Below are positions 36,047-57,049 of a stretch of 64,000 nucleotides of DNA, piece after piece. The DNA is from Bradyrhizobium icense (GTDB taxonomy: Bacteria; Pseudomonadota; Alphaproteobacteria; Rhizobiales; Xanthobacteraceae). Location of the stretch: positions 4,960,001-5,024,000 of the forward strand of contig NZ_CP016428.1 in assembly GCF_001693385.1 (NCBI RefSeq). The letters are read 5' to 3'. The position numbers and the translations under genes were made by a program. Position 1 is the stretch's first letter, and every line of letters begins with the position of its first letter. The notes beneath the pieces are model-generated. The model was not told the DNA's origin and did no database searches. It saw only the letters and a list, made by a program, of their open reading frames with translations.

Positions 36047-36058
36047 GGGGAATTCCCG

Positions 36059-38086: not shown

Positions 38087-38164
38087 TCGCCGTCCCACTC
38101 GCCCGCGCTACGTCGACAGCGCGATGAAAACGGGGAAAACGGCAGGCCTTCAATCAAAATAAAA

Positions 38165-38590: not shown

Positions 38591-38607
38591 ATTGGAGCTT
38601 TCCAGCC

Positions 38608-39863: not shown

Positions 39864-39872
39864 GGCCCGGCG
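39853..39872 (+). terminator. Stem-loop across the RES stop codon
   Basis: CGCCGGGC, loop TGAG, GCCCGGCG: a perfect 8-bp GC stem that includes the TGA of the toxin gene. No T-run follows, so termination efficiency is uncertain. Confidence 0.45.
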
Positions 39873-39992
39873 AAGTCCGCCAATCCGCAATTTGGGCCGA
39901 GTTGGGTATGCTCGCAAGTTGACGAAACGTCGACGTGCTGGGTCGGATTCACTCACCGTTCAGCCGAACTGCGGAAACCCCCTGCAAGGGCA

Positions 39993-40024
39993 AGTTATAC
40001 TATTTTCGCAAGAATAGTATAACT
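39993..40024. repeat. loxP-like 12-8-12 palindrome
   Basis: Two perfect 12-bp arms, AGTTATACTATT and AATAGTATAACT, flank an asymmetric 8-bp centre (TTCGCAAG). The AT-rich arms stand out in GC-rich DNA. The 12-8-12 layout is that of tyrosine-recombinase core sites (loxP is 13-8-13), rather than of a GC-stem terminator. It lies between the RES toxin and the relaxase remnant. An operator is the alternative. Confidence 0.5.
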
Positions 40025-40141
40025 AGCAGCAATTTCAGAATCTTAGAGCATGTTCCTGAGAAAGCTTCTCGGAAATAGCCCTGCGGGCAAATGGGAGCCA
40101 GCCGAAAGAGAGCGTGGGCGAAGACGGATATGCTCCGTGCA

Positions 40142-41122
40142 CTAGCGTCCGATGCCCCGTTTTATTCCGATCGACCAGGAAATCCCCTCGCCGCCGACGC
40201 TACCGGTGACGAACTGCCCGCGCGCCCGCTCGAGAACCGGCCGCCAAGGCACCAACACAAACGCGTGGGACCGCTCAATCAGCGCATACCGGCCGCTGTT
40301 CAACGTCAGCATGCGCCGGTAGACGCCGCTGACGTTGTCGCCCGCTTTGACCTCGAAACGATCAAGGCCGGTTCGCGCCGAAATCTCCGCAGCGGTCTGG
40401 CGGAGTTCACGAGCCTCGAGGGTTCGGAGCAAGTCCCGCGCATAGCGCAGCTTCCCGTCCTGTTCGCGCGCGAGCCCCTGCTCGATCAGCCATTGCCGTC
40501 TTGCCCGCATTGCTGCCTCGACCTCCGCACCCGTTCCGCTCGGCCCAAGCGCCTCGGGGGTGCTGGCGACAAGCTGGCGATCGATCCAGGTGGCGCCCAC
40601 CGCCTGTGGCAGATCCTCGAGCCTCTGCCATGACAGCACCGCAAGGCGAACCGGATTGCGGGAGCGCTGGCGGCTCTCGTACTGCATCGCCCGGTCAAGA
40701 TAGTCTTCGCCCACCGTCCAGCTTCCGTCGGCGAGCCGGCTGACGATACCTTCCTGCCGCATCGCTTCCAGGCGCCGCACATGCGATGCGACGAACTCGC
40801 CGGAAGCCTGCCGGTCGAACTCATGGTGCAACTGCTCGCTGTAGCGTCCGCGATGCGCGGCGGCGATCCTTGCGATGGTCCGATCGATCTCCCGCGGTTC
40901 TGCAACACGCGATCTGAGTTCCACGATGGTGTTCCGGACAGGCGCCTCATCGCCAGCCGAGAGGCTGCCGATCTCGGCGTAATGCGTCCGCCCGTCGATG
41001 CCATCGAGGACCACATAGCGACGCTCGCCGAGTCTGATGTACGGAAGACGTCGAGGAACGGAGCCTCGCCACTCGGCGATATAGTCTTTCATAGCCCGCC
41101 GGATCAAGGCGAGCGACGTCAT
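40142..41122 (-). pseudogene. Relaxase, C-terminal DUF3363 part only
   Basis: The 326-residue frame matches the C-terminal half of VirD2/TraI-type relaxases with DUF3363: RRLPYIRLGERRYVVLDGIDGRTHYAEIG, FDRQASGEFVASHVRRLEAMRQEGIVSRLADGSW, then GDNVSGVYRRMLTLNSGRYALIERSHAFVLVPWRPVLE. The N-terminal nicking domain with the catalytic Tyr and three-His motif is absent, and the upstream 400 bp do not encode it in any frame. If no other relaxase exists elsewhere, the element cannot start its own transfer. It is transcribed toward the palindrome at 39993. Confidence 0.8.
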
Positions 41123-41533
41123 CGCGCGTACGGCGGTGCGAAGACATGATGGGATGGTTCAGGGCCTGCCCCAAGCTAGAAAGCACTTCGGAGCGCTGAT
41201 CGTTTCGGCCAAATGGGGCAACAGAACGGCCCAGCGGGTACTTTCGGGCGCCGATTGCATCAGTCCGCCAGTGTCCAGATCATGCCCGCGCAAATTTTTG
41301 CTGGTGTCTTTGCGGATCGCCCAACACCGGATCACATACTGCCAATCGGCCGTGGTTGCGAGAACGCTTCTCTCGCCCCCGTGCTGGCCAACGGCAGACA
41401 CTCGAACGCGGTAGCCCCACGAACAAGACGTCTCAATGTCAATCTTGCAAATTCCGTGGTATGCTTTCTCGTGTGGAGGCCGATTCCGGTCTGCGCAGTA
41501 AGCGATCTCATTTGAGATTTAACGGAGGGGCAT

Positions 41534-41605
41534 ATGGCCAAGAAAGCGAAGAAGGCGAAGAAGACCACTGTGAAAAAGGCCAAAAAGAAGAAGATGAAGA
41601 AGTAA
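41534..41605 (+). CDS. Lys-rich 23-residue peptide
   Basis: A 24-codon frame with a strong ribosome site (GGAGGGG, 4 bp before ATG) encodes MAKKAKKAKKTTVKKAKKKK and three more residues. Fifteen of 23 residues are Lys. It resembles the histone-H1-like tails and the very small basic proteins seen in Bradyrhizobium genomes. A nucleic-acid-binding role is plausible. The surrounding 41123-41798 has no other supported gene. Confidence 0.55.
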   Translation: MAKKAKKAKKTTVKKAKKKKMKK

Positions 41606-41798
41606 GTCTTCGACGACCTTCTGCTCGTTCCGAGCAAGATGCCTGCTTGGCAACGTTTGCACTCGTCGACCTCGCTTTGATCTGAATGGACCGATCAATG
41701 GTTGGGCCGGACCGCATGGCGCCTTGGGCACCGTGCAGTCCGGCTCTCAAATTCTTACAGTCATTTCCCGCAGCTCTGCCCTGAGTTGGCCGAGGCCT

Positions 41799-41948
41799 CT
41801 AATGCAATCCATTCATCACCGTCAGGACGTTCGATAGCAGGACGCCAGTCGACATCAGCGCGGCAAGGCTGATGATCATTTGCGCCAGGCAAGTGCGCTT
41901 AAGCGTCACCGCTTGTGGATCGGGAAACAACATGAACGGACTCGCCAT
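41799..41948 (-). CDS. Small membrane protein, 49 residues
   Basis: ATG 41948 is preceded by GGAG with good spacing. The protein has a short polar start (ASPFMLFPDPQAVTLKR) and one hydrophobic helix (AQMIISLAALMSTGVLLSN). It is unrecognised; a single-span small protein is all that can be said. Confidence 0.4.
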   Translation of the reverse strand: MASPFMLFPDPQAVTLKRTCLAQMIISLAALMSTGVLLSNVLTVMNGLH

Positions 41949-42163
41949 CGTCAGCTCCGTGAAGCGGTGAACGCGTTTGTAGTGGCCGAGAAATAGGGTG
42001 AGTCGCGCCGATCGCGATGCAGTATATTTGTCACCTATAAGGTTGACTCTTCACCGACTCGGCTGCGGCCAACTCGGGGGCACGAATTGAGACGCCGCGC
42101 CGAATCGGTTGGCTTAAGTTCAGGTAAACAAAAGATTAACGGCTTCCGTCGCGCGGCTAAAAG

Positions 42164-42190
42164 GCCCCGCCCGAGTGGGTCGGGCGGGGC
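42164..42190 (-). terminator. Intrinsic terminator of the DUF736 gene
   Basis: Perfect 11-bp stem GCCCCGCCCGA / TCGGGCGGGGC with loop GTGGG, 16 bp after the DUF736 stop; on the minus strand it is followed by CTTTTAG. Confidence 0.7.
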
Positions 42191-42205
42191 TCGGTGGAGA
42201 GAACC

Positions 42206-42523
42206 TCAGTCGCCGTTCTTCCGCGGCCGCGACCAGAGCAGGGCATGACCTTCGCCTTCATCCTCGAACAGGTTCGCATAGATCGGCGCGTTGAACGAAG
42301 GATCATCGAGCTTGAGCGAAAGGTAGTCGCGGCCCTCCTCTGAGCGCTTCGACCAGGCTGCCCCGATCTCGGCCCGGCCGACGTAGACGCGGTGGCTGGG
42401 CGCGTTCTCGTTTGTGCGGTTGGGCTCGGCGACGATGCGGACGCCCTTCGCCTGCACGCTCAGGGTGACGATCTCGCCCTGAAAATCGTTGCCGACCTTT
42501 TTAAAGGAACCGATGTTAGCCAT
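42206..42523 (-). CDS. DUF736 domain protein
   Basis: A 105-residue protein typical of conjugative plasmids and ICEs. It shows ANIGSFKKVGNDFQGEIVTL at the N-terminus, HRVYVGRAEIGAAW in the middle and KLDDPSFNAPIYANLFED toward the end. Function is unestablished; it is usually encoded alone with its own promoter and here has its own terminator. The start has an AAGGAGAAGTGAC ribosome site. Upstream, 42524-43129 holds no supported gene. Confidence 0.9.
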   Translation of the reverse strand: MANIGSFKKVGNDFQGEIVTLSVQAKGVRIVAEPNRTNENAPSHRVYVGRAEIGAAWSKRSEEGRDYLSLKLDDPSFNAPIYANLFEDEGEGHALLWSRPRKNGD

Positions 42524-43129
42524 GTCACTTCTCCTTGAGTTTTCGAGCCCGCGACCACCGCAGCCTCGATGGCGATCGAGAGGCCGAATGACGATCGGCG
42601 ACGCACCCGCTCGCGGGCCGGAGCGTAGCGAAGGACGCTAGCCGGAAGACTTTCTTGGCTCGCGAGGAATGGGCGTCAGCCCAGGGGAAGAAAGTCTTAA
42701 CGGCGGCGTTGCGGCTCAGACGATCGAGGCGGAGCCGGTCTTCGGCCAGATCCAGCCATCAAGAGGCAAGGTGCGTCCGTGCGCTGAACAGCCTTAAAGG
42801 AGACGGGCGGCGGACGTCGGTCGTCCTGTACAAGAGGTCGAGAGGTTCAGGCGAAGAAAGGAAACAACGTACGGGAAAAGTCGGGCGTTGGCCGCCCCGA
42901 AATAGCCGTTAGAGAACGCCCGCCTCGACACTCACGGGGTCCGCGAATGATCGGCATAATGGCCGTGTAGTGCTCTGAGGAGACCGCCTCTCGCTGCGAT
43001 GCCCGTCGTTGGCGATCTCGACGCGCCTAATGATCGAGGAGAACCCTGGGCGTCGAGCCGAAGGGCTATAACCGCCCTGGCCGCGAGAACTGGTTGACGT
43101 TCGGTTCGCCCTGCCCTGACTGACTGAAG

Positions 43130-43530
43130 CGGGCCAAGCTCGGCCAAGACGGTCATGCCGCCCGCCCCCGTGTCACCGATGAAGATCGAACCGATGCAGC
43201 AAAAGATCTCGCGCCAGACCGGGGATGGCATCCCAACGTACGATATCCGAGAATCACATGATAACCGGCAACGGCCGCCGGAATGGCAAAGACTGCCGCG
43301 ATGACGGCGCGCAAGACGAATGACAGCGCCAGGGCAAAGGTGATCTGACCGATGAGGAGCATCAGCGCGGCGGCAGCGATGCCGACGAGCAACCTGCCGA
43401 TGGTGCCCCGCGCACCATGAAATACCATCACGCCGGCAGTGAACCTAACCAGCAATGGAAGGGCGTCTACAGCGAGAGCAAAGATCGGAGTAGAATAGGC
43501 CGATGCGAAGGTATTGAGGAAGTCCGAGAG
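43130..43530 (-). pseudogene. Frameshifted ICE membrane protein
   Basis: The minus strand from 43530 reads LLSDFLNTFASAYSTPIFALAVDALPLLVRFTAGVMVFHGARGTIGRLLVG, with further hydrophobic helices down to AAVAGYHVILGYRTLG. About 43230 the sense passes to another frame (VWREIFCCIGSIFIGDTGAGGMTVLAEL). A membrane protein with this order is common beside DUF2493/DUF736 in rhizobial elements. The frame break suggests it is dead. A start at TTG near 43530 is likely but not certain. Confidence 0.55.
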
Positions 43531-43704
43531 CAATTCGCGCCTTCCACCAACACCTGGACGCGAGGTTACTGAAGCCGGAACTAGTAAGAAGTGCGGCTCA
43601 CTGTCTAACCACATTCCAGGTGGCGAATGTGCTCGGGGGCGCGATTGCGTCGGTTCCGACGCTTGCCCTATGCAGGGAGTTTTCGAAATCGGCATGGACG
43701 GCGA

Positions 43705-44643
43705 TCACGCGCCGCCATCGCCAAACTTCCAGACCGGGATGCCGAGCCGTTTCGCCTTGTCGGCGAGATTGCTCTGGATGCCAGTGCCGGGGAAGACCAT
43801 GACGCCGATCGGCAGGATCTCCAGCATCGCGTCATTACGCTTGAACGGTGCGGCCTTGGCGTGCTTGGTCCAGTCGGGCTTGAAAGCAATCTGAGGCACC
43901 TTGCGATTGGTCGCCCATTTGGCGGCGATCAGTTCGGCGCCTTTCGGCGAGCCGCCATGTAGCAGCACCATGTCAGGATGCTTGCCGTGGACCTTGTCAA
44001 GTCGATCCCAGATCAGATGATGGTCGTTGAAGTCGAGCCCACCGGTCAGGGCAATTTTGGGGCCGGCCGGCAGCAATACTTCGGTCTCCGCCCGGTGTTT
44101 GGCGACGAGGAAATCCCTTGAGTCGATCATCGCCGCAGTAAGCTTCCGATGATTGACCAGCGATCCAGAGCGAGGACGCCAGGGCGAGCCGGTATGGACC
44201 TGGAAGTGCTCGATGGATTGATCGCGGAAGAGTTCCATGCAGTTGCGACGTTCGACCAGCGTGATGCCTTCGGCCGTGAGCCGCTCGAGTTCGACCGATC
44301 TGATTTCCGAGCCGTCCTGCTCACGCTGGCTCTTCCGCTGCGCTTGCTCGTTATCGTCGAGCTCGCGCTCGATGCGCTCTGTTGCACGGTGGAACAGGTT
44401 GACCGTCGACCAGAGCAGGTCATCGAGATCCGGCTCGAGGCGAGTGTCGCTCAGGGTTGCGACGAGGGCGTCGAACATATCGGCGACAGCACCCGCGATC
44501 ATCTTGCCTTCGGGAAGCGGCCTCGGGTCTGGCTCGTCGTTGAAAGGCCGGTAGCCAAAGAGCTGAAGTTCGCTAATGACGTGATCCATCGGGAATGAGC
44601 CGTGCGTTGGTTCGAAATCGAGGTCGTTGCGATCGGTTGTCAT
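43705..44643 (-). CDS. DUF2493 domain protein
   Basis: 312 residues from ATG 44643. The C-terminal part has the DUF2493 Rossmann-like pattern: PKIALTGGLDFNDHHLIWDRLDKVHGKHPDMVLLHGGSPKGAELIAAKWA, and PDWTKHAKAAPFKRNDAMLEILPIGVMVFPGTGIQSNLADKAKRLGIPVW. The fold is related to DprA/SMF and LOG proteins and probably binds a nucleotide or ADP-ribose. N-terminal 200 residues are helical. This gene recurs next to the Toprim and ArdC genes in conjugative elements. Upstream, 44644-44994 has no supported gene. Confidence 0.85.
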   Translation of the reverse strand: MTTDRNDLDFEPTHGSFPMDHVISELQLFGYRPFNDEPDPRPLPEGKMIAGAVADMFDALVATLSDTRLEPDLDDLLWSTVNLFHRATERIERELDDNEQAQRKSQREQDGSEIRSVELERLTAEGITLVERRNCMELFRDQSIEHFQVHTGSPWRPRSGSLVNHRKLTAAMIDSRDFLVAKHRAETEVLLPAGPKIALTGGLDFNDHHLIWDRLDKVHGKHPDMVLLHGGSPKGAELIAAKWATNRKVPQIAFKPDWTKHAKAAPFKRNDAMLEILPIGVMVFPGTGIQSNLADKAKRLGIPVWKFGDGGA

Positions 44644-44994
44644 GGTCGAGGTCCTTTGCCCGGATCGGCCGCGCCCATCGCGGCCTTCGTGGCGATCACC
44701 TGACGGCGGGCGGAACGGACCAGAACCCGAAGCAAAGCGAAGGGCCGCAGCGACAGCGGAGGATGGCGAAGTCCGGCTATTTTGCTTCGCGATGCAAAGG
44801 CGCGTGGCGGGGGCCCCGCGAAGCTTTCTTCGTGGGGTGAACACCGCCGGCGGAAAATAGCCGGGCGCAGCCATTGCCGGTCCGGTCCGAATGCTGTCCG
44901 ATCGCCCTCTAGAAGGCCAGGGCGCGGCCTCTCCTCGGCACCATGGACCTCTACCATCGACCTACTGTGAGGACGTCGCTGGCAACGCCGGCTG

Positions 44995-46050
44995 TTATCC
45001 ATTCTCCGCCATAACCAAGAAGCGGGTAACGTCCTGCGGCGCGAGTTGAATGCGCATAGCCGCTCGAAGCTCGTGGATGCCGAACGTGCGGAGATCGTCA
45101 TTAAAATCTCCCAACCGAGGAGACAAAGCGATCGCCACGATACCAGCAGCCTCCGAGCGCTGCCTGAGGGCAGCCGTCGCCGCGTGTCCCGCTGCATCCG
45201 CATCCCGGACGATGTAGAGGCGACGCAGCGTCGGCGGGAGCAGCATGGCAGCGAGGTGATTGGCCGATAGTGCGGCGGCCATTGGCAAGGTAGGCAGTGC
45301 GTAGCGCAGCGACAGGATGGTTTCGATCCCTTCGCCCGCGACAAGCACATCATTCGCCGTACCGAAACGAACTGCGTTGCCGAGCAGATCGCCCATTGCC
45401 CGTCGTGGTGTGTCGATCGGCGCCTTGCCGAGCCTGATCGGGTCAAACCCCTCAGGATTGAGCCAGGTCCGGTGCGCGCCTGTTATCCGGCCATCGAGAT
45501 CGGTGACGCGGGCAATCATTGCAGGCCAAATCTCGGTCCGCGCGTCCTCATCCGGACGATAGTAGCAGCGTGGGTGGAAGCGCAGGCTCGCTCCGTAGTG
45601 CAGCTCGAAAATGGCGCGTCCGCGCAAATATGCCTCCACGAGGGTCCCATCGATCGGCCGAGATATCGCGAACAGCCGCCGCGCCGCTTCCGGCGATCCT
45701 GCCTTTACTGTTGCGCCGACCGGCTTCGTTGGGAGATCTGGGTGCGGTCGAGGGAGCTTAAGGAAGCGCGTTGCCTCGTCCACGACATCGCGGAATTCTA
45801 TGAAGCCGCAGGTTTCGCGGATGATGTCGAGGAGATCACCATGTTCGCCCGTGGCGGCGTCGGTCCATTTGCCCGCAGGTCCCTTCGGAGATTTCTGTAA
45901 CCGCACGAACATCGAGCGGCCTGGCGTGTTGCGGACATCGCCGACCAGCCAATAGCGCCCCATGCGCCGACCATTGGAGAGATAGTGGCGGCACACCGCC
46001 TCGGCCTCGCGCGCGAGGCGGTGTGCCAGTTCGGAAGCGTCGAACGGCAT
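44995..46050 (-). CDS. Toprim-domain (DUF7146) primase-like protein
   Basis: 351 residues. An N-terminal zinc-ribbon-like region lacks obvious Cys pairs (GRRMGRYWLVGDVRNTPGRSMFVRL). The C-terminal Toprim domain has VLVAGEGIETILSLRYALP with the catalytic Glu, and LRRLYIVRDADAAGHAATAALRQR with the DxD. It is related to the plasmid primase/helicase-type Toprim proteins of ICEs, likely assisting complementary-strand synthesis after transfer. It abuts the ArdC gene. Confidence 0.85.
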   Translation of the reverse strand: MPFDASELAHRLAREAEAVCRHYLSNGRRMGRYWLVGDVRNTPGRSMFVRLQKSPKGPAGKWTDAATGEHGDLLDIIRETCGFIEFRDVVDEATRFLKLPRPHPDLPTKPVGATVKAGSPEAARRLFAISRPIDGTLVEAYLRGRAIFELHYGASLRFHPRCYYRPDEDARTEIWPAMIARVTDLDGRITGAHRTWLNPEGFDPIRLGKAPIDTPRRAMGDLLGNAVRFGTANDVLVAGEGIETILSLRYALPTLPMAAALSANHLAAMLLPPTLRRLYIVRDADAAGHAATAALRQRSEAAGIVAIALSPRLGDFNDDLRTFGIHELRAAMRIQLAPQDVTRFLVMAENG

Positions 46051-47006
46051 CAGACGGCCTCGCAGTGGGCGGGTTCTTCCGCCGGGCTCGAGGCGAGATC
46101 AGGCAAGAACGCGAGCAGATAATCCGCGACTTTGCTGGCCTGCGAAGCGGCGCGGACGATCGCGCGATTGTCTTCGCGGAGCACCTCAAGCCACGAACCA
46201 ATGTAGTCCGCATGCCGCACGGTCGGCACGATGCCGAGCGAAGCACAGCAGAATGCGCCGGATATCTCCGCGATGATTTCCTCGAAGGCGTATTTCTTGG
46301 TGCCGTAACTTCCGGATAGATCCCGGTTGAGCCGTGAGAAATGGCCGCTGGCATGAGCCAACTCGTGCAGAGCCGTGCGATGCCAATTGATCGGCTCAAA
46401 GTAGGCAGCCGGAAATGGCACCTGAACGTAGTCCTCAGAGGGACAATAGAAAGCTCGGTTACCTCCGATTCGAAGATCGATGCCGCTGGCACTAATCAGC
46501 GCTTCGACTTGCGGCTCGATCATGTGAAGTAACGCGAGAGGCGCCATAGTCGACACCTCGGCTGGCAGCCCGTCACATTGGTCGGTATTGAAGACCGTAA
46601 AACGTTTCAGAAAGGGAATCGCTTGGGCTTCGTCGGCCGCCTCAATCGCCCGCTTCCTCTCCTCTTCGGGCACGAAGCGGTCAGCATAGACGACGGTCGT
46701 TCCTCGCTCTCCTTTGCGGACGTGGCCACCCAGCGACAATGCCTGCCGGAAGGTGAGCCAGCTCTGGCCGGAGAAGCCCCGCTCGACCACAGCGCTCCAG
46801 AGGATCAGGATGTTAATGCCGCTATATCGCCGATGTGTTGCTGCATTGTAAGGCATGGCAAGCGGCGCCTTCGCCGCAGCCGTTCCCCACGGCTGGACCC
46901 AGGGCACACACCCCGCCTCTAGTTCGGCAATGAGTCTATTCGTGATCTCGTCATAAAAATTGGTCCGGCTGGGGCTGCTCTGCGAAACTTGGTTGTGCCT
47001 GGACAT
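46050..47006 (-). CDS. ArdC-like antirestriction zincin
   Basis: 318 residues: an N-terminal ssDNA-binding domain (TNFYDEITNRLIAELEAGCVPWVQPW, GINILILWSAVVERGFSGQSWLTFRQALSLGGHVRKGERGT) and a C-terminal metallopeptidase with HELAHASGH near residue 215 and YAFEEIIAEISGAF. ArdC proteins protect incoming single-stranded DNA from restriction. It is typically among the first genes to enter the recipient. Upstream, 47007-47601 contains no supported gene. Confidence 0.9.
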   Translation of the reverse strand: MSRHNQVSQSSPSRTNFYDEITNRLIAELEAGCVPWVQPWGTAAAKAPLAMPYNAATHRRYSGINILILWSAVVERGFSGQSWLTFRQALSLGGHVRKGERGTTVVYADRFVPEEERKRAIEAADEAQAIPFLKRFTVFNTDQCDGLPAEVSTMAPLALLHMIEPQVEALISASGIDLRIGGNRAFYCPSEDYVQVPFPAAYFEPINWHRTALHELAHASGHFSRLNRDLSGSYGTKKYAFEEIIAEISGAFCCASLGIVPTVRHADYIGSWLEVLREDNRAIVRAASQASKVADYLLAFLPDLASSPAEEPAHCEAV

Positions 47007-47601
47007 CGCGGTTCTCCGCGACGGGCACCGCGAGCCTCTCTCGCGGCCATAAACCCGTCACGGCAATCCAGGCCGCCACTCTTGGCTCTCTGGAGATCTC
47101 CTCGTCTCGGCCATCTCGGTGCGTCTCGACCGTGAATGCGATCCAGAGTCCCATCCTTCTCAAAGCCCAGGTCGTGGAAACCGTGTGACCTCCTTCAACG
47201 CCCGGCGAGTGGGTTACGCGATAAGGAGATGAAGCTTATGTTGCTGACATCGAAATCGTGCGCGAGTATCGCGACGTTCTGACTCTAAGTGCGAATTTGC
47301 GATCCGATCGAAATGCGTAGCATGGGCACACGCCGATGACGCACGGGCGTTGTCTAATTGCGGGCGCAGGGTCAACTTTTGTGGCTCTCAGCCCCCCGAG
47401 ACCATAGACCTCGGCAGCATGGACGGGCGGCCTCAGTTAGTTTGCTGTAAGCGCGGCATGGACCGTGAAATACTCTTGCAGCAGTTGGCGGTAGCCCACC
47501 GCAAGTCGCCCAGGGCGCCGCGCGCATTGCCAAAAAAGGAAGTGCCTTCAACCTGGATTAGGTCGTGGGGCAAGGTCCGGATGCATCAGCCCCTCGATCG
47601 T

Positions 47602-47617
47602 TGTCCGCTTTCTGACA
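47602..47617 (+). promoter_or_regulatory. NifA upstream activator site 1 (TGT-N10-ACA)
   Basis: TGTCCGCTTTCTGACA is an exact TGT-N10-ACA, the NifA-binding pattern, 98 bp before the -24 box at 47715. A single such motif is expected often by chance, but here it occurs twice in correct place before a sigma-54 promoter. Confidence 0.75.
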
Positions 47618-47631
47618 GCGGCACACAAACC

Positions 47632-47647
47632 TGTGAGATTCAAAACA
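47632..47647 (+). promoter_or_regulatory. NifA upstream activator site 2 (TGT-N10-ACA)
   Basis: TGTGAGATTCAAAACA, again exact, 30 bp after the first site (about three helical turns), so both lie on the same face of the helix. Confidence 0.75.
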
Positions 47648-47686
47648 TCGTGCACCGTTTGCGCATCGCGAACTGTTTCAAAGCAC

Positions 47687-47699
47687 AATCAGGCGCTTA
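47687..47699 (+). promoter_or_regulatory. IHF-like site
   Basis: AATCAGGCGCTTA fits the IHF consensus WATCAA-N4-TTR with one mismatch. It lies between the activator sites and the promoter, where IHF bends DNA in nif promoters. Confidence 0.5.
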
Positions 47700-47714
47700 A
47701 TGCGCGCGAGGAGC

Positions 47715-47730
47715 GCTGGCACGGCCGTTG
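47715..47730 (+). promoter_or_regulatory. Sigma-54 (-24/-12) promoter
   Basis: TGGCACGGCCGTTGCT matches the sigma-54 consensus TGGCACG-N4-TTGCW at every position. The start site would fall near 47742, about 19 bp before the first small frame. With the two NifA sites upstream this is a textbook nif-type control region. Confidence 0.85.
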
Positions 47731-47760
47731 CTCTATCTCACCGTAGGGCAATAAGGACCA

Positions 47761-47811
47761 ATGAACATGAACGGCACGACAGGATCTTGGATCTACGGAA
47801 GAAAGCGCTGA
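47761..47811 (+). CDS. 16-residue peptide, first frame after the promoter
   Basis: ATG 47761 has an AAGGACC ribosome site and encodes MNMNGTTGSWIYGRKR, then TGA. The stop shares a base with the next start (TGATG), so downstream translation may depend on this frame. It could be a leader peptide for translation control or a very short precursor. No family match is known to me. Evidence is the position, ribosome site and coupling; it is too short for coding statistics. Confidence 0.45.
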   Translation: MNMNGTTGSWIYGRKR

Positions 47812-47945
47812 TGCCGAGGAAAGAACAGACCAAGGCCAAAGAATTTCGCGGCACTTCGATCCAGGGCGGTTTTGGGAGCATATCACAGAACGCGATAGTT
47901 GCGGCTAGAAGGGCCAGGCAAGACAATGACGGCCAGTGCCGTTGA
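47811..47945 (+). CDS. 44-residue peptide coupled to the GMC oxidoreductase
   Basis: ATG 47811 overlaps the preceding stop and the frame ends 20 bp inside the oxidoreductase gene. The peptide is basic with a glycine-rich centre (RGTSIQGGFGSISQNAIVAARRARQ). It is a candidate precursor or small regulatory partner of the enzymes; another reading is that it is only a translational relay. No Cys/Ser/Thr-rich core as in lanthipeptides is seen, and no peptide-modifying enzyme is encoded next to it. Confidence 0.45.
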   Translation: MPRKEQTKAKEFRGTSIQGGFGSISQNAIVAARRARQDNDGQCR

Positions 47946-49440
47946 CGTATGCGTCGTTGGGAGTGGTGCCAGTGGCTCGATAGTTGCCCACGAGATCGCT
48001 CGAAACGGATTCCGAGTGCTCGTCCTTGAAGAAGGCCGGACGCTTCTCCCCGGCGCCTCACTGGCGACTGTCCAAAGTGGCTTCGATGACGCCTTGGTGC
48101 CCTCTCCTGCCGGGACGTTGACGCCGTTCGGGCGCCCCTGGAGCGTGTCGGCACTCGGCGGTGGAATGACGCTGTATGCCGGGATCGCCTTCCGTTATCG
48201 GACCGTCGATTTTGACGCGCGAGCGCATGTGGCCGCGGACGCGCTCGACCCAGTCTGGCCGATCGACTACGCCGAACTACGCCCCTATTACGAGGAGCTC
48301 GAACGGCGGATGGGGGTGGCCCGGCTCCCTGGCGCGGACCCGCTCGAACCGCCCAGCGATCCCGCCGTGCTGCCGCCGCACGAGTACAGCCCACAGGGCC
48401 TGTTGATCGCCAAGGCGGGCGGACGCCTAGGCCGGCTGCCGTTCCCCACCCCGCTGGCTATCAACTCGTTGCCCTATGGCGGCCGCCCGGCGTGTCACTG
48501 CTGCGGCCCGTGCAATGAACACCTGTGTCCGACCGGTGCGAGGGCCGACGCGCGGTCCCCATTCATTGACGTGCCCCTGCCGCCCGGCGCACTGACAGTC
48601 GCCCTGGGCAGCAAGGCCGTGCATATCGGCCTGGGCAACGTAAGCCGCGCGGACTCGGTGGAATGGCTGGACACCGTCACCAGTCAACGCGCTCGGGTCC
48701 GCGCCCGTTGCGTGGTGCTCACCGGCAACGCGGTGCAGTCTGCCGCCCTGCTGCTACGGTCGGCGCAGTCCGCGGCGCCCAACGGCATCGGCAACGCCAC
48801 TGGCATGGTCGGCAGCGGCATCTCGTTCAAAATCAGTGGCTACGTGTCCGGCAGCACCACGCTGGACCGGCTGCCCGCGCGGTCGCCGGGCGGCCCGTTC
48901 TCCACGGTCGCAATGTCGGATCACTACCTCGACGACGAGGCGCCCTCCGGGCTGGGCGGAATGATCTACGAAGCCAGTCCTGCCGAACAGGCGGTTTGTG
49001 ACGGCACTATAGCGCTACGGCTTCATTTCCTGGCGGCCGATCAGCCCATGCGCAAAAATACGGTCCGACTGGCCAACAGTCGAGATCGGCTAGGTCTGCA
49101 GAAAATCATTCTTGAATACTGGACTCATCCGCTGGACAAACGCCGATTAGGCTATTTGTCCCGACGCGCGTCGGAATTGCTGGCCGAAGCCGGCGTGAAA
49201 AAAGTCGATTACCAGGATTCCAACTATCAGTTCGGTCGCGGGCATCTGCATGGCGGCTGTCGAGCAGGGGTCGATCCAACAGAGTCTGTAGTCGACCGCT
49301 GGGGTCGGGTGCACGACATCGACAATCTCTATGTCGCGGACGGCGGGTTCTTTCCGTATTCCGGAGGCGTCAACCCGACCTTCACTATTCAGGCGAACGC
49401 GCTGCGGATCGCTCGAAGAATCGCCACGCAGCTCGCCTAA
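47926..49440 (+). CDS. GMC-family FAD-dependent oxidoreductase
   Basis: 504 residues from ATG 47926. FAD-binding DVCVVGSGASGSIVAHEIARNGFRVLVLEEGR opens it, then LGGGMTLYAG. A C-terminal active-site region (GHLHGGCRAGVDPTESVVDRWGRVHDIDNLYVADGGFFPYSGGVNPTFTI) holds the catalytic His and Asn. Around residue 190 is a Cys cluster, CHCCGPCNEHLCPTGAR, known in some bacterial members. It should oxidise an alcohol to an aldehyde or ketone. GMC enzymes paired with class III aminotransferases perform 6'-oxidation and amination in aminoglycoside synthesis, a useful parallel. High G/C third positions differ from neighbours, suggesting transfer from an actinobacterium. Confidence 0.88.
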   Translation: MTASAVDVCVVGSGASGSIVAHEIARNGFRVLVLEEGRTLLPGASLATVQSGFDDALVPSPAGTLTPFGRPWSVSALGGGMTLYAGIAFRYRTVDFDARAHVAADALDPVWPIDYAELRPYYEELERRMGVARLPGADPLEPPSDPAVLPPHEYSPQGLLIAKAGGRLGRLPFPTPLAINSLPYGGRPACHCCGPCNEHLCPTGARADARSPFIDVPLPPGALTVALGSKAVHIGLGNVSRADSVEWLDTVTSQRARVRARCVVLTGNAVQSAALLLRSAQSAAPNGIGNATGMVGSGISFKISGYVSGSTTLDRLPARSPGGPFSTVAMSDHYLDDEAPSGLGGMIYEASPAEQAVCDGTIALRLHFLAADQPMRKNTVRLANSRDRLGLQKIILEYWTHPLDKRRLGYLSRRASELLAEAGVKKVDYQDSNYQFGRGHLHGGCRAGVDPTESVVDRWGRVHDIDNLYVADGGFFPYSGGVNPTFTIQANALRIARRIATQLA

Positions 49441-49475
49441 CCGACCATGGGCGGAGAATCAACCGGAGATCGTTC

Positions 49476-50786
49476 ATGTCCATGAACACGCCCAGTGGCA
49501 CCTTGGCCGCGACCGACGCGCAAAAAACCGCACTCCGCCGCGCGCTGCGGATCACCGCGTCGGAGAAATGGGATCTCAACCGGCGTTTTCCAGTGGTGAT
49601 GAGCCGCGCGTCCGGCGCGCATGTCTGGGATGTTAATGGAAAACAATACGTGGATTTCACCTCATGTAGCGGGGCCGCGCCGTTGGGAGCCGGATACGAA
49701 CCTGTGCTTGCGCACGTCGCCACGGAAATGCGCCGCACCGGCGGCATCCTACCCGGGCCGTTGTCCGTGCACCGGGTCGAGTTGGCCGAACGGCTCGCGG
49801 AAATCTTCCCGGTCGCGCAACGCTCGGTGTTCTTCCGCACCGGCTCATGCGCCACCACCGCCGCAGTCCGCCTCGCCCGCGCGCACACCGGCGTCAACCT
49901 GGTGCTTACTAGCGGATATCACGGCTGGCACGACTGGCACTTACAGGACCGGCCAGCGATGGGGCTGCCCAGGCGGGACCCGGACAGCGTGGAGTTCCGC
50001 TACGACCTGGACCTGCTTGAGAAAGTGGCCAGCGCCCAGCGCGTCGCCGCGGTGATCATCACCCCCGAGGTCAACTTCTTCCCTGCCGAATACCACCGAC
50101 GATTGCAGACGCTGGTGCACCAGCACGGTGCCCTGTTGATCCTGGACGAGGTTATGACCGGTTTCCGCTACGCCCTCGGCGGATACCACACCGCAGTCGG
50201 CCTCACGCCCGACCTGATCACGCTGAGCAAAGGACTGGCGAACGGCATGGCGCTATCTGCGGTGGCCGGTCGGGCGGACGTGCTCAACGCCACCGAAAAG
50301 ACCTACCTGGGCAACACCTATCAGCGTGAGGTTACCCCGTTTGCGGCCGCGCTGAGCACCCTAGACGCGCTGCGCGACGGGACGGCGCTGGCGCGGATGC
50401 GTCAGGTTGGCGAGCAACTCATCAACGGGCTCAACGAGGTCTTCGTCGGCCAGCAGGTCGAGGCGTGGGCGTTCGCCTGGCCCACCATGTTCGACGTCAT
50501 GTTTGCCGACGCCGAACTCGGCCACGCGTTCTTCCAGGAGATGTGGTCGCGGGGCTTCCTCATGCAGTACGGCGGCCGGTTCATGCCATCCGCGGCACTG
50601 TCCGACGCTGACGTACGGGCCGCGATCGAAGCCGCCGGACAGGCTTTGCCGGCGGCACTGGCGCGAGTGGATAGCACCGGCAGCGACCCGGATCCGGTGG
50701 CCGCCGCCGTGCGGTTCGCCGGTGATCATTTCGTGGCGACCCCGGATTCCGTCCGGCTCTGGTTCACTGCGCCCAGCCGCCCATGA
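49476..50786 (+). CDS. Class III PLP-dependent aminotransferase
   Basis: 436 residues related to glutamate-1-semialdehyde aminomutase. Landmarks are FTSCSGAAPLGAGY, the PLP-phosphate loop FRTGSCATTAAVRLAR, the aromatic stacking SGYHGWHDWH, the Asp of LLILDEVMTGFRY and the Schiff-base Lys in LITLSKGLANG near residue 252. It would aminate the carbonyl made by the preceding oxidoreductase. The end overlaps the sulfotransferase start. True GSAM would be next to haem genes and is not expected here. Confidence 0.88.
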   Translation: MSMNTPSGTLAATDAQKTALRRALRITASEKWDLNRRFPVVMSRASGAHVWDVNGKQYVDFTSCSGAAPLGAGYEPVLAHVATEMRRTGGILPGPLSVHRVELAERLAEIFPVAQRSVFFRTGSCATTAAVRLARAHTGVNLVLTSGYHGWHDWHLQDRPAMGLPRRDPDSVEFRYDLDLLEKVASAQRVAAVIITPEVNFFPAEYHRRLQTLVHQHGALLILDEVMTGFRYALGGYHTAVGLTPDLITLSKGLANGMALSAVAGRADVLNATEKTYLGNTYQREVTPFAAALSTLDALRDGTALARMRQVGEQLINGLNEVFVGQQVEAWAFAWPTMFDVMFADAELGHAFFQEMWSRGFLMQYGGRFMPSAALSDADVRAAIEAAGQALPAALARVDSTGSDPDPVAAAVRFAGDHFVATPDSVRLWFTAPSRP

Positions 50787-51757
50787 ACACCAGCTGTCAA
50801 ACAGGGGACACCGCTATGTCCGAGGCCAACCCATTTCCCACTTCGCCGGTTCTGCTCGGCGGCGACAACAGGTCCGGCACGACCTTGCTGAGCGTCGTGC
50901 TGGACTCTCATCCCGATCTGGTGATCGGGCCGGAGATCGACTTCCTGGAGCCGCCAAATCTCGGTCCACACATCCTGCGCGCGATTGACCTGCTGGATGC
51001 CCGCGACCCCAAGGTGATCGGCACCACAAAAAGCACGACCGATCCATTCTGGTACGACGGCGTGCACTTCGCGGTGCAGTGTCGACGCTTTGGCCTGGAG
51101 TTCGACGACGTGCGCGAGCTGGTCACCAAGGTAATGGCCGAGGTGGCCAATGACATTGTGTCGTTCGCCGACCGGTGCCGGCTGATCAACGAGATCGGTG
51201 AGTTCCGCAGGGCTCAGACCGGAGCCCGGCGGTGGGGACTAAAACTACAGCGCAAGATCGCTCAGGTCGATTCTTACGCCCGGCTGTGGCCGAGGGCGCA
51301 TTTCGTGCACATCGTGCGCGACGGTCGGGACCTGGCCGCCTCGCACCTGAAAACCGTGCCGGATTGGGGTTACCGGACCGCCGCCGAAGCCGCGCGGGGC
51401 TGGCTTGAAGTGGTTTCCCGGCCGCATCGGGTCGCGCCGCCGGACCGCTACCTCGAGCTGCGCTACGAGGATCTGGTAAGTCGTCCTCGACCCACCCTGA
51501 CCCAAATCCTGGACCACCTCGGCTTGCCTTGGGACGAGGCCGTGCTGCGGCACGCCGAGTATCAGCACGCGCTCTTCGACCATCCGTACGGCCACCCGGC
51601 GGCCGAATCCGCTGGCAAACCGCTGCACTCGGGCCGGCTCGGTCGCTACGCCGAGGATCTGACGCGCGCTCAGATCGCGGAGTTCGAGCGGATCGCCGGC
51701 AGTGAACTGGCCCGGCTGGGCTATCCATCGGCCCCGACCTTGACCGTCGAAGCGTGA
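50783..51757 (+). CDS. PAPS-dependent sulfotransferase
   Basis: 324 residues (an ATG at 50816 with a GGGGA site is an alternative start). The 5'-phosphosulfate loop is VLLGGDNRSGTTLLSVVLDSHPDL and the 3'-phosphate motif is FVHIVRDGRDLAASHLK. It transfers sulfate from PAPS to an alcohol or amine. It overlaps both neighbours by 4 bp. The nodQ-nodP genes at 62-64 kb could supply PAPS. NodH, the Nod-factor sulfotransferase, is a different length and context, so I do not call it nodH. Confidence 0.85.
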   Translation: MNTSCQTGDTAMSEANPFPTSPVLLGGDNRSGTTLLSVVLDSHPDLVIGPEIDFLEPPNLGPHILRAIDLLDARDPKVIGTTKSTTDPFWYDGVHFAVQCRRFGLEFDDVRELVTKVMAEVANDIVSFADRCRLINEIGEFRRAQTGARRWGLKLQRKIAQVDSYARLWPRAHFVHIVRDGRDLAASHLKTVPDWGYRTAAEAARGWLEVVSRPHRVAPPDRYLELRYEDLVSRPRPTLTQILDHLGLPWDEAVLRHAEYQHALFDHPYGHPAAESAGKPLHSGRLGRYAEDLTRAQIAEFERIAGSELARLGYPSAPTLTVEA

Positions 51758-53001
51758 GCCGCGCCCACTGTTCCGCCGCCCTGCTCCGACTGCCGCGCGG
51801 CTACCTGGCGCTGCTCGTTGGCCAGACCGTGTCGTTGCTGGGCTCCCAGGTGACTATGCTGGCGCTGCCGCTTACCGCGATCACTCTGCTGGGCGCGGGA
51901 CCCGTGCAGACCGGGCTGCTGCTGGCTTGCGGTCGGGCGCCGTACCTGTTGGCGGGCCCGTTCGCCGGCGTCATCGTGGACCGCCTCCCGCACCGGTGGA
52001 TCCTGTTGATCGCCAACTTCGTGATGGCGGCAACGCTGGCCACGATTCCGCTGCTGGCCGGCCTTGGACATCTCGGAATGGTCCAGCTGTGTACGGCGAC
52101 GGCGCTGGTCGGGGTGGCGGCGGTGAACGCCGAGGTGGCCTATCTGGCGTGCGTACCTACGGTGGTGGACCGGACTCAGCTGGTCCAGGCGCAGAGTTTG
52201 TTGGAGCTCAGCCAGGCGAGCGCGTTGGCAGCGGGTCCGTTCTTGGCCGGCTGGTTGGTGAGCGCGTTCTCCGCGCCGACCGCGATCCTGGCCGACTCGG
52301 CCTCGTTCCTGCTCGCCGCCGCGTTGCTGTCGCTCGTGCCGATGCGCGCGGCCGCGCGATCAGCGGCCGGGTCGACCCAGCTACTCGGCCAAATGGCCGA
52401 AGGGCTGACCACCGTGTTCGGCAACCCGATTCTGCGGGCAGTCACGTTGGCCACTGGCACCTTCATCTTTTGGTACAACGCATATTCGGCGGTCTTCCTG
52501 CTGCACCTGACGAAAGATCTGGGTTTGGAGGGCGGGACTGTCGGCGTGGTGCTCGGCATCGGTGCACTCGGTGGCGTCGTCGGCGCAGTCACCGCACCGT
52601 GGGCGGGACGCGCGATCGGCCTCGGGCCGGTGCTGATGGTCGCGCTGGCGCTCAGCGCTGGAGGCATGAGCGTGGCGGCGCTTCTCACCCGGCCGTGGTG
52701 GGCCGCGGTGGTGTGCGTGGCACTGTCTCAGTTCCTGCTGTCGGTTGGCCAAGGGATTTACAACGTGCAGCAGGTCCCCATTCGATATGCGCTGGCCCCG
52801 CACCGGCTGCAGGGCCGGGTGAACGCGAGCATCCGGAGCGTGGTGTGGGGGCTGGCGCCACTGGGCGCGCTGGTCGGCGGCGCGGCGGGTGCCGCATCGG
52901 GCCTGCGTGCCACGTTGCTGGCCAGCAGCGTTCTGGGCGCGGCGTCGGTGCTGTGGATCTGGCGGTCGCCGCTGCGCCACACGCACAGTTTGCGTCTCTG
53001 A
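51754..53001 (+). CDS. MFS exporter
   Basis: A 415-residue transporter with about 12 membrane helices (YLALLVGQTVSLLGSQVTMLALPL at the start), including the loop motif GVIVDRLPHRWIL between helices 2 and 3. It resembles the EntS-like efflux branch of the superfamily that exports siderophores and small natural products. GTG 51754 overlaps the sulfotransferase stop. It most likely exports the sulfated amine of this pathway. Confidence 0.85.
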   Translation: MSRAHCSAALLRLPRGYLALLVGQTVSLLGSQVTMLALPLTAITLLGAGPVQTGLLLACGRAPYLLAGPFAGVIVDRLPHRWILLIANFVMAATLATIPLLAGLGHLGMVQLCTATALVGVAAVNAEVAYLACVPTVVDRTQLVQAQSLLELSQASALAAGPFLAGWLVSAFSAPTAILADSASFLLAAALLSLVPMRAAARSAAGSTQLLGQMAEGLTTVFGNPILRAVTLATGTFIFWYNAYSAVFLLHLTKDLGLEGGTVGVVLGIGALGGVVGAVTAPWAGRAIGLGPVLMVALALSAGGMSVAALLTRPWWAAVVCVALSQFLLSVGQGIYNVQQVPIRYALAPHRLQGRVNASIRSVVWGLAPLGALVGGAAGAASGLRATLLASSVLGAASVLWIWRSPLRHTHSLRL

Positions 53002-53020: not shown

Positions 53021-53252
53021 ATGGAGATCAAAACACTGGACGAGCTTGGCCTTCACCCGGGCCGGCTGACTGTGTGGCGGATCAAACGTGCCCGATCCTA
53101 CCTGGCGCCCCGACCCGCGGGCGACGGTCTCACGTTGCTTCCACTTCGCGATAGTCTTCTGGCCCTCGCCTCCGTTCAGATGCTCCCGGGGCAGCAAAGA
53201 TGCCAGCGAGTAATTCTAGCTGCCCGTCGACTTCTGGATCATCTCGTAGACG
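53021..53252 (+). pseudogene. Possible truncated fifth gene of the cassette
   Basis: ATG 53021 follows the MFS stop by 19 bp, with GGACAGGACC upstream. It reads MEIKTLDELGLHPGRLTVWR and then about 50 unremarkable residues before the frame passes into excisionase-like sequence. The start looks genuine, so a gene may have been cut here when the cassette was inserted. I do not recognise the family. Confidence 0.35.
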
Positions 53253-55050: not shown

Positions 55051-56877
55051 CTATTCTACGGTCACCGATTTCGCGAGATTACGTGGCTGATCGACGTCCG
55101 CTCCCATTACGACAGCGGTATAGTAGGCCAAAAGCTGCACCGGAATGGCATAGACCATGGGTGTAAAGGTTGCAGCCATGTCTGGCAGCACAATGGTCAC
55201 GAGCGAATCCACCGTCGCTTCCGAAGCCCCTGTCGCATCGGTCATCAGGATGATGTTGCCACCACGAGCGGCGACTTCCTGCATGTTTGAGACGGTTTTT
55301 TCGAAAACTCGGTCATAAGGAGCGATCACCACCACCGGCATGCTCTCGTCGATCAGCGCAATCGGGCCGTGTTTGAGCTCGCCGGCGGCATAGCCCTCGG
55401 CGTGAATATAGGAGACTTCCTTCAGCTTCAGCGCGCCCTCCAACGCCAAGGGGAACGATGTGCCGCGGCCGAGATAGAGCACAGCGCTCGATTTGGCGAT
55501 GTCGCGCGCGAGCTTCTCGATCTGCGGTTCGATCGCGAACGCCGCAGCGATCAGCCGCGGAACTTCGATCAGCTCTTCCACGAGCTTCAATTCATCGATG
55601 TCGGACAATTCTCCGCGCCCTTTGCCTGCGGCGACCGCAAGGGCGGCCATCACCATCAGCTGACAAGTGAAAGCTTTGGTCGAGGCGACGCCGATTTCCG
55701 GGCCCGCCATTGTCGGCAGCACGGTTTCGCTCTCGCGCGCAATCGTCGACGTCGGTACGTTGACCACGGAAACCGTGTGCAGCCCCTGCGCCTTGGCGTA
55801 GCGCAACGCGGCCAGCGTGTCGGCGGTCTCGCCGGACTGCGAGATGACGATCGCGAGATCCCCCTTGCGCAAGGGCGCTTCGCGGTAGCGGAGTTCGGAG
55901 GCGACATCGATCTCGACCGGCATACGGGCCAGCCGCTCGAACCAATACTTGGCGACGTGACCGGCATAGCTTGCGGTACCGCAAGCCGTGATCGAGATGC
56001 GCCTAATGTCATTGAAGTCGAATGGCAGTTCGAACGGCAGCGCGATGCGTTTGGCGGCCATATCGACATAACGCGCCAGCGTCTGTCCGACCACTTCCGG
56101 CTGTTCGTGAATTTCCTTGGCCATGAAGTGGCGATAATTCGCCTTGTCTACCAGGAGCGATGACGCGCCGGATTTCAGCGTTTCCCGGTGGACGATGGCG
56201 CCGTTCGAATCATAGATGACGCCGATCGTGCGGGTAAGCACGGCCCAGTCGCCGTCTTCAAGATAGGTGATTGTATCGGTGAAGGGCGCGAGCGCGATAG
56301 CATCCGATCCTAAATACATTTCGCCGTCGCCGTGCCCGATCGCGAGCGGCGACCCCCTGCGCGCGCCGATCATGAGATCGTTATGACCTTTGAACAGGAA
56401 TGCCAGCGCGAACGCGCCGCGCAGCCGCGGCAGCAACGCTTTCACTGCGTCCTGCGGCGAGTAGCCATTCTTTAGATAGGATTCGACGAGATGCGCCACC
56501 ACCTCGGTATCGGTCTCGGAGGCGAAGTTAGCGCCATTCTGCTCTAGCTCAACGCGCAGCTCGCGGAAATTCTCGATGATCCCGTTATGGACGACGGCGA
56601 CATTGTTCGTCACATGCGGATGGGCATTGCGCTCGGTCGGCTTGCCATGGGTGGCCCAGCGCGTATGACCGATACCAATATGACCCGACAGCAGGTCACC
56701 GCGTAGCCGCGCCTCGAGATTTTTCAGCTTGCCCTCGGCACGCCGGCGTTCGAGATGGTCGCCTTCAAGCGTCGCGACGCCTGCGGAGTCGTAGCCGCGA
56801 TATTCCAGTCGTTTGAGTGACTCGACCAGCTGCCCCGCGACCGGACCACGCCCCAAGATGCCGACAATACCGCACAT
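55051..56877 (-). CDS. nodM: Glucosamine-6-phosphate synthase (GlmS/NodM)
   Basis: 608 residues. It makes glucosamine-6-phosphate from fructose-6-phosphate and glutamine, the precursor of peptidoglycan and of the Nod-factor chitin backbone. The nucleophile is Cys at position 2 (MCGIVGILG), so ATG 56877 must be the start. The glutaminase (HTRWATHGKPTERNAHPH, HNGIIENF) and two SIS domains (ISITACGTASYAGHVAKYWFE, VVISQSGETADTLAALRYAK, YLGRGTSFPLALEGALKLKEVSYIHAE, KSVTVE end) are complete. The housekeeping copy in Bradyrhizobium lies near glmU; here only symbiosis-type genes surround it, so nodM is likely, but glmS cannot be excluded from sequence. Confidence 0.88.
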   Translation of the reverse strand: MCGIVGILGRGPVAGQLVESLKRLEYRGYDSAGVATLEGDHLERRRAEGKLKNLEARLRGDLLSGHIGIGHTRWATHGKPTERNAHPHVTNNVAVVHNGIIENFRELRVELEQNGANFASETDTEVVAHLVESYLKNGYSPQDAVKALLPRLRGAFALAFLFKGHNDLMIGARRGSPLAIGHGDGEMYLGSDAIALAPFTDTITYLEDGDWAVLTRTIGVIYDSNGAIVHRETLKSGASSLLVDKANYRHFMAKEIHEQPEVVGQTLARYVDMAAKRIALPFELPFDFNDIRRISITACGTASYAGHVAKYWFERLARMPVEIDVASELRYREAPLRKGDLAIVISQSGETADTLAALRYAKAQGLHTVSVVNVPTSTIARESETVLPTMAGPEIGVASTKAFTCQLMVMAALAVAAGKGRGELSDIDELKLVEELIEVPRLIAAAFAIEPQIEKLARDIAKSSAVLYLGRGTSFPLALEGALKLKEVSYIHAEGYAAGELKHGPIALIDESMPVVVIAPYDRVFEKTVSNMQEVAARGGNIILMTDATGASEATVDSLVTIVLPDMAATFTPMVYAIPVQLLAYYTAVVMGADVDQPRNLAKSVTVE

Positions 56878-57049
56878 GCTGATCAATGCCCTCCAGCTTC
56901 AAGGAAATCATCTTCAAAATCGCAGAAACTTAACCAAATTCACTCGTCTGAACGTACTCAATACTCATTGCGGATGGCGACATCGTTGGCGGTTCAACTC
57001 TGGAATTCGCTGTCAGAGCAATTAGTCTCGCCGCGTGCACACGCGCGAG

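Follow-up and report, generated by a model that had tools for sequence, protein, structure and literature searches.

The window analyzed here is a 64,000-nucleotide stretch of the Bradyrhizobium icense genome (G000:C1:4960001-5024000; a single contig of 8.32 Mb whose close relatives are Bradyrhizobium). It contains a four-gene operon preceded by a control region with the layout of nitrogen-fixation genes. The four genes are co-directional, with a 35-bp gap between the first two and 4-bp overlaps thereafter, and are followed by the remains of a fifth:

47926 to 49440 (+): GMC oxidoreductase, proposed sugar CH2OH dehydrogenase or oxidase
49476 to 50786 (+): class III aminotransferase, C-6' aminotransferase type
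50783 to 51757 (+): sulfotransferase (Sulfotransfer_3) of the type using 3'-phosphoadenosine-5'-phosphosulfate (PAPS)
51754 to 53001 (+): MFS exporter
53021 to 53200 (+): decayed N-terminal remnant of a PapA2-like acyltransferase gene

The order and spacing of the four genes, as read in a first-pass annotation made from the letters alone, are borne out by Pfam and by the coordinates. The GMC oxidoreductase (PF05199, PF00732) starts at ATG 47926, a start conserved in 13 aligned Bradyrhizobium loci. Its PDB matches are fructose and glucose dehydrogenase subunits, the best being the large subunit of fructose dehydrogenase (121 bits). The aminotransferase (PF00202) matches the C-6' aminotransferase 7lld with 243 bits, as compared to 111 bits for the best glutamate-1-semialdehyde enzyme. 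It is identical to its nearest solved enzyme at 138 of 371 aligned residues (37%), and has in common with the C-6' aminotransferase a KGLANG motif, which presumably holds the pyridoxal phosphate lysine. The sulfotransferase (PF13469; AlphaFold mean pLDDT 88.8) is assigned by Pfam to Sulfotransfer_3 and Sulfotransfer_1, with no Stf0-family match reported, and its match to NoeE lies far under the cut-off (21 bits vs 500). The exporter belongs to PF07690 and PF05977. The chemistry expected of these families, that is, oxidation, transamination, sulfation, and export, is supported.

The region upstream of the operon contains the following features:

47546 to 47918 (+): diverged copy of a dispersed NifA-type promoter module (two activator sites, the promoter, and the beginning of the small open reading frame, or ORF, that belongs to the module)
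47602 to 47617 (+): NifA-type upstream activator sequence (UAS) 1, exact TGT-N10-ACA, 115 bp before the promoter
47632 to 47647 (+): NifA-type UAS2, exact TGT-N10-ACA, 85 bp before the promoter
47686 to 47698 (+): site like those for integration host factor (IHF)
47717 to 47732 (+): -24/-12 sigma-54 promoter TGGCACGGCCGTTGCT, exact TGGCACGN4TTGCT, GG-N10-GC type
47761 to 47811 (+): tiny frame 1, 16 amino acids, apparent fossil start of the module ORF, its Shine-Dalgarno lost
47811 to 47945 (+): tiny frame 2, 44 amino acids, apparent fossil continuation of the module ORF

The two activator sites are exact and 30 bp apart, as first described, and a pair with this spacing occurs at just two places in the genome. 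A single TGT-N10-ACA is no commoner in the window than expected by chance (10 observed, 5.78 expected, with 8 of 100 shuffles reaching 10), so that significance is carried by the combination of sites. The promoter is, as claimed, a perfect match to consensus and the sole exact one in the window, although it lies at 47717 rather than 47715; the pattern with two or fewer mismatches is not enriched there (9 observed vs 12.3 expected). Exact matches number 27 over the whole genome. The operon's promoter is one of four exact promoters having at least two UAS, and that of nifH (5669427-5670245 of the same genome) is among the other three. Transcription would be expected to start at ~47743. An IHF-like site had been placed at 47687; we find it at ~47686 with one mismatch, judged by eye, to WATCAANNNNTTR, which we take to be the IHF consensus. 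Across six loci that have this region, UAS2 and the promoter show no variable bases (0 of 16 each, 0 of 32 together), as compared with 12 of 111 in three neighboring stretches; UAS1 has 3 bp deleted in L023. The sequence supports a control layout of the NifA/sigma-54 type, with a -24/-12 promoter and two upstream activator sites, in agreement with the nitrogen-fixation-type control logic put forward earlier. Exact promoters having a TGT-N10-ACA 60-200 bp upstream number 11 in 0.8 Mb (5.0-5.8 Mb), as against none in a 0.4-Mb control taken elsewhere in this genome, and because of this enrichment the operon looks to be within a symbiosis island.

The control region aligns at 76% identity over 387 columns (E 6e-73) to another promoter-plus-UAS site in the same island, G000:5577901(-), with the alignment including the start of a 75-amino acid ORF (MNDTTGSWAYGE...). 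Beyond 47918, 7 bp short of the GMC start codon, the similarity is lost, which argues that the promoter was captured. Matches to the module at E<=1e-8 occur in 52 of 265 genus genomes, 51 of which have nifH; many weaker matches cover the promoter part alone. Among 30 module loci looked at, six are the window operon, window included. In eight others (L152-L159), the promoter part, ~87-91% identical, precedes a small DUF4189-type protein with a signal-like N-terminus, and in three (L166, L169, and L171) a module-like promoter region precedes an ornithine-decarboxylase-like gene (Pfam on one locus in each case). L149 has a leader fossil followed by a DUF4189-type gene, and the remaining loci have related or degenerate leader ORFs ahead of various genes. 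The module precedes several unrelated genes in the genus, and is therefore usable for finding further nodule-stage genes. Among the new points here is the reading of the control region as a captured copy of this module with a recognizable ORF scar.

That scar accounts for the two tiny leading frames pointed out in the first-pass annotation. Both exist as ORFs, but instead of being conserved peptides they appear to be the broken start of the module's small ORF, needing no role of their own. A 1-nucleotide difference at 47799 joins them into one ORF in L001, L023, and L074, relative to which tiny frame 2 of the window is 1 nucleotide out of frame. In the window's register, the ratio of nonsynonymous to synonymous rates (dN/dS) of tiny frame 2 is >1 in all 11 computable pairs of 15; tiny frame 1 is too short for selection to be judged. 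A leader peptide or a precursor of a ribosomally synthesized and post-translationally modified peptide was considered and is not supported, as the frames are not conserved as peptides. Of 24 aligned module rows (some of them repeating one place), 13 have the Shine-Dalgarno-like GAAGGAGCT, and 12 have a 12-bp hairpin after the module ORF, the hairpin being weaker in two cases; the six window-clade rows have neither. The original unit likely consisted of promoter, small ORF, and hairpin, with the window retaining the front part only.

Such a unit recurs in Bradyrhizobium islands (L162, L163, L164, L165, L167, L172, L150, L151, and G000:5577901(-)), with a NifA-type promoter, a strong Shine-Dalgarno, an ORF of ~50-75 amino acids (M-S-S-T-T-G-S-W-A-Y-G-E...), and a GC-rich hairpin of 12 bp that lacks a T-run. 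It possibly yields a small mRNA or peptide at the nodule stage. In eight loci compared with Rfam, no family reached its gathering score. A codon test on 12 module ORFs was mixed, with pN/pS from 0.30 to 1.62 over the computable pairs and lowest in pairs with L163 or L164, and a single 65-amino acid protein was the only database relative of the 75-amino acid ORF. At another exact promoter with UAS, G000:5592248(-), the leader reading resembles by eye the reading upstream of nifH (FLREK...ESNM), and this is perhaps a second captured nif promoter.

A search with the sulfotransferase led to 26 loci. The first-pass annotation had proposed looking for the four-gene order in Bradyrhizobium and actinobacteria, and it is found in Bradyrhizobium L001-L011, in broken form in L023, and at ~60-70% identity in three actinobacteria (L014, L017, and L025). 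Its occurrence in both groups suggests horizontal transfer, and a crossing between the two phyla appears likely. In L004-L010 and the three actinobacteria, the gene after MFS encodes a condensation-domain protein. The five-gene order of these actinobacteria and Bradyrhizobium has ~60-70% identity, and their GMC and aminotransferase proteins are nearer to each other than to the Sinorhizobium forms. In Pseudomonas L018, the condensation-domain protein has as its best solved relative PapA2, a trehalose-2-sulfate acyltransferase (98 bits, E 6e-27). That locus is one of a group from Mesorhizobium, Ensifer/Sinorhizobium, and Pseudomonas (L012, L013, L015, L016, L018, L019, and plasmids L079 and L081) having, in this order, genes for sulfotransferase, acyltransferase, GMC oxidoreductase, aminotransferase, HAD phosphatase, and a TreT-like synthase (143 bits, Pfam TreT_GT1), with an MFS gene after the sulfotransferase in Pseudomonas. 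Lonsdalea loci have sulfotransferase, MFS, and acyltransferase genes, and in L020, the one scanned, ketoacyl-synthase-III-like, acyl-CoA-dehydrogenase-like, and P450 genes lie upstream. Further relatives of the sulfotransferase bear names from Paraburkholderia, Pectobacterium, Xanthomonas, Nocardia, and others among the matches listed (120 of 218 proteins at E<=1e-30, from 8000 candidates scored).

In the window, the acyltransferase gene survives as a 22-residue in-frame match (53021-53086) followed by frameshifted pieces, and a remnant occurs in all window-clade loci examined. A search of the rest of the genome gave weak condensation-domain matches only, inside ORFs of >2000 amino acids. Among Bradyrhizobium loci beyond the window clade, L011, L066, L067, L068, and L077 lack the gene, and L059, L073, and L075 have it broken or in fragments; given this scatter, it was probably lost more than once. 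We consider the four-gene operon to be a truncated remnant of a larger cluster. The unknown sulfated amine first proposed as the product stands as to its sulfation and amination chemistry, and the aminotransferase type along with the partner genes in relatives refines it to a 6-amino-6-deoxy sugar. Thus, the operon plausibly makes and exports a sulfated 6-amino-6-deoxy sugar, and trehalose is plausibly the best single guess for its substrate.

The operon enzymes are under purifying selection, with dN/dS of 0.16-0.52 for the window against L001, L002, and L003 (GMC 0.16-0.31, aminotransferase 0.19-0.22, sulfotransferase 0.26-0.52, MFS 0.19-0.23). Thirty of the 265 genus genomes have the sulfotransferase. 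Of these carriers, 29 have nifH, as compared to 129 of the 235 other genomes (Fisher p 1.8e-6, uncorrected for kinship), and the carrier without it, G106, is a draft genome. Samples of the phylum (1 of 398) and of the order (1 of 397) had no carrier besides the window's own genome.

Regulation of the cluster differs elsewhere. Within 700 bp of the GMC gene, the 26 other Bradyrhizobium loci (22 distinct, with four near-identical pairs) have no UAS and no -24/-12 match with two or fewer mismatches; four have a 3-mismatch -24/-12 match. In 21 of these 26 (17 of the 22 distinct), an inverted repeat, TCGTAC-N13-GTACGA with two or fewer mismatches, sits 138-221 bp before GMC (L004-L009, L011, L059-L061, L063-L066, L069-L073, L075, and L076), as compared with 9 of 1142 control pieces, and is probably the operator of another regulator in operons without the nif module. 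Among the loci tested from Sinorhizobium, Mesorhizobium, Pseudomonas, and Lonsdalea, no NifA-type promoter was found ahead of the sulfotransferase gene, though a lone UAS is present in some from Sinorhizobium. On two Cupriavidus taiwanensis plasmids (L080 and L082), a -24/-12 element with two mismatches, preceded by a UAS at a distance of 111-112 bp, lies directly before the sulfotransferase. These promoter regions are 86% identical to each other and are the sole such combinations in four 25-kb loci, both strands. No similarity between them and the Bradyrhizobium module is detectable, and so they probably represent a second, separate recruitment. An adenylyl-sulfate kinase is annotated beside the cluster in L080; the surroundings of L082 have several insertion elements annotated and, in an incomplete annotation table, no aminotransferase.

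The explanation we favor builds on the module homology, the gene content and order, the relatives, and the acyltransferase decay, from which we infer NifA dependence, substrate, product, and nodule timing. A promoter module copied from the island-dispersed family would have joined just upstream of the operon's start codon, and the operon is probably NifA-controlled on this captured promoter. In the low-oxygen nodule, NifA bound at the two upstream sites would activate sigma-54 polymerase, and the four genes would be transcribed as a single message. The GMC enzyme would oxidize a CH2OH group (primary alcohol) on a sugar to the aldehyde, which the aminotransferase would convert to CH2NH2; the sulfotransferase would add sulfate from PAPS, and the MFS protein would export the product. 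With trehalose as the most likely substrate, this product would be a sulfated 6-amino-6-deoxytrehalose, which in relatives the PapA2-like enzyme would also acylate, a step lost here. The copied nitrogen-fixation switch suggests that such a sulfated aminosugar is made inside the nodule. Besides the module homology, points in favor are the enrichment of promoter plus UAS in the island, the nearest relatives of the aminotransferase and GMC proteins, the PapA2-like and TreT-like partners in relatives, the PAPS genes close by and the OtsA-like protein (both described below), the unrelated NifA-type promoter in C. taiwanensis, the presence of nifH in 29 of 30 carriers, and purifying selection on the enzymes. 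We regard this explanation as a whole, from captured promoter to trehalose, as evenly poised between right and wrong.

Several observations weigh against it. The first of these concern the substrate, and are consistent with the same captured promoter and enzyme logic acting on some other CH2OH-bearing sugar, a glycoside, a nucleoside, or a cyclitol. The C-6' aminotransferase match points to an aminated hexose without telling which. No TreT gene was found in the Bradyrhizobium loci read to ~8 kb on each side; TreT is seen only in the loci of the L012 group, whose GMC and aminotransferase proteins are just 38-40% identical to the window's. Comparison of the sulfotransferase model by Foldseek did not narrow the acceptor, placing the enzyme near tyrosylprotein, CurM, and olefin-synthase sulfotransferases with modest TM-scores. 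The recurrence of a PapA2-like acyltransferase and a TreT-like synthase with the same sulfotransferase argues for trehalose instead, and a different substrate is possible, if on balance doubtful.

Other observations bear on whether the product matters in the nodule at all. NifA control is not general to the cluster, as seen in the 0 of 26 other Bradyrhizobium loci with a NifA-type promoter. Three of the six examined operons with the module promoter, all from one small clade, are broken: L001 by single-base indels in the aminotransferase end and MFS gene (draft genome), L023 by a 638-bp deletion and frameshifts, and L074 by many indels (single-contig genome). In L026, all that is left is the end of the sulfotransferase gene along with the greater part of the MFS gene, and the module is absent. 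The cluster is hence patchy and partly decaying, the acyltransferase gene being decayed in the window, with 8 of 26 other Bradyrhizobium loci lacking it or having it in broken form, and the PAPS genes near the operon, described below, may instead serve Nod factor sulfation. The operon might then be a decaying passenger that acquired its promoter through a chance rearrangement, the island being rich in repeats, with a product having no nodule role in this clade; the broken operons, the acyltransferase remnant throughout the clade, and the patchy distribution in the genus and order samples fit such a history. Against it stand the four intact genes of the window, L002, and L003 (dN/dS 0.19-0.31 for the window vs each), the invariance of UAS2 and the promoter, and the unrelated NifA-type promoter in C. 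taiwanensis, and we think it unlikely. A rhizopine-like pathway, in which an aminated inositol feeds a nodule nutrient loop, would have in common with the rhizopine mos locus, the comparison drawn in the first-pass annotation, nif control, amination, and export, but is highly improbable, as Pfam finds nothing rhizopine-like in the four genes (neither a MosA-like enzyme nor an inositol dehydrogenase), the aminotransferase belongs to the C-6' sugar type, and sulfation is not known to be part of rhizopine synthesis.

Returning to the captured NifA/sigma-54 promoter and a sulfated aminotrehalose, a broader version takes in C. taiwanensis. Root-nodule bacteria from two classes, Bradyrhizobium and Cupriavidus, may independently have put under NifA a shared, horizontally spread cluster for sulfated 6-amino-6-deoxytrehalose, whose fuller forms would yield an acylated, sulfolipid-like glycolipid; in the window clade, capture of the mobile module would have coincided with the loss of the acylation step, so that the product became a small soluble sulfated aminosugar instead of a lipid. 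We offer this version tentatively, and think it rather unlikely to hold in full.

The surroundings of the operon include one gene of possible relevance to sulfate supply:

62026 to 63915 (-): CysNC/NodQ-type sulfate adenylyltransferase subunit 1 and adenylylsulfate kinase, one of two such kinases in the genome

A sulfate adenylyltransferase subunit 2-like ORF, judged by eye, adjoins this gene, and the enzyme possibly provides PAPS for the sulfotransferase nearby. Downstream of the operon (window 55051-56886 and 62026-63915; L084:3915-5039 and 6235-7784) are GlmS (NodM-like), CysNC (NodQ-like), the subunit 2-like ORF, and, by eye, LuxI/LuxR-like ORFs. Upstream, Pfam identifies TraG/type IV secretion system-type, DUF3363, Toprim, and ArdC genes at 31307-47006, which are part or remains of an integrative conjugative element adjoining the operon. 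An OtsA-like protein is encoded elsewhere in the genome (552 bits, slightly below the family cut-off of 565).

Three known systems offer comparisons. Aminoglycoside pathways pair a C-6' dehydrogenase with an aminotransferase, as in Neo11/NeoQ with NeoN and GenQ with GenB. The operon likewise has its GMC gene directly adjoining one for a class III aminotransferase, and the solved proteins closest to the latter are C-6' aminotransferases. It differs in having no other aminoglycoside genes and in adding a sulfotransferase, and its aminotransferase is 37% identical to the nearest solved enzyme; no solved partner enzyme is among the PDB matches of the GMC protein. The mycobacterial sulfolipid-1 pathway employs Stf0 and PapA2, and resembles the operon's relatives in combining a sulfotransferase with a PapA2-like acyltransferase and a trehalose-type synthase. 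Unlike that pathway, the operon adds amination functions, and its acyltransferase is decayed. The mos locus combines nif-type control with amination and export, and differs in its enzymes; the operon has sulfation and a sugar-type aminotransferase, and no mosA/mosB-type genes were found by Pfam among its four genes.

In the literature, the title of Ferrieres 2004 (cited in PMC7888657 and PMC3164228) speaks of promoter duplication, FixJ genes of S. meliloti, and the symbiotic regulon. As far as that title tells, genes there too enter a symbiotic regulon through a duplicated promoter, whereas the present case involves a NifA/sigma-54 module, another genus, a biosynthetic operon, and a recognizable ORF scar. 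A portion of PMC4842269 describes RpoN-like promoters at nodule-only start sites of B. japonicum, and one of PMC6515984 has sulfotransferase and aminotransferase genes under separate locus numbers (bsr6521 and blr2221), taken to be unrelated to the cluster. We recognized no description of the cluster itself, which is weak evidence of absence as subscription journals were mostly outside coverage.

The route into the NifA regulon proposed here is one in which ready-made activator sites, promoter, and leader start are joined beside a start codon and leave a recognizable scar. For a monosulfated 6-amino-6-deoxytrehalose (C12H23NO13S), the mass predicted by hand calculation is ~420.08 as [M-H]-, a value that could be searched for in nodules. 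If the explanation is true, some rhizobia make a specialized sulfated aminosugar only while fixing nitrogen, a candidate for unexplained bacteroid metabolites. If NifA recruitment in two bacterial classes is also true, the compound would represent a type of bacteroid-stage metabolite not described before, with an action on the host or a protective function in the bacteroid.

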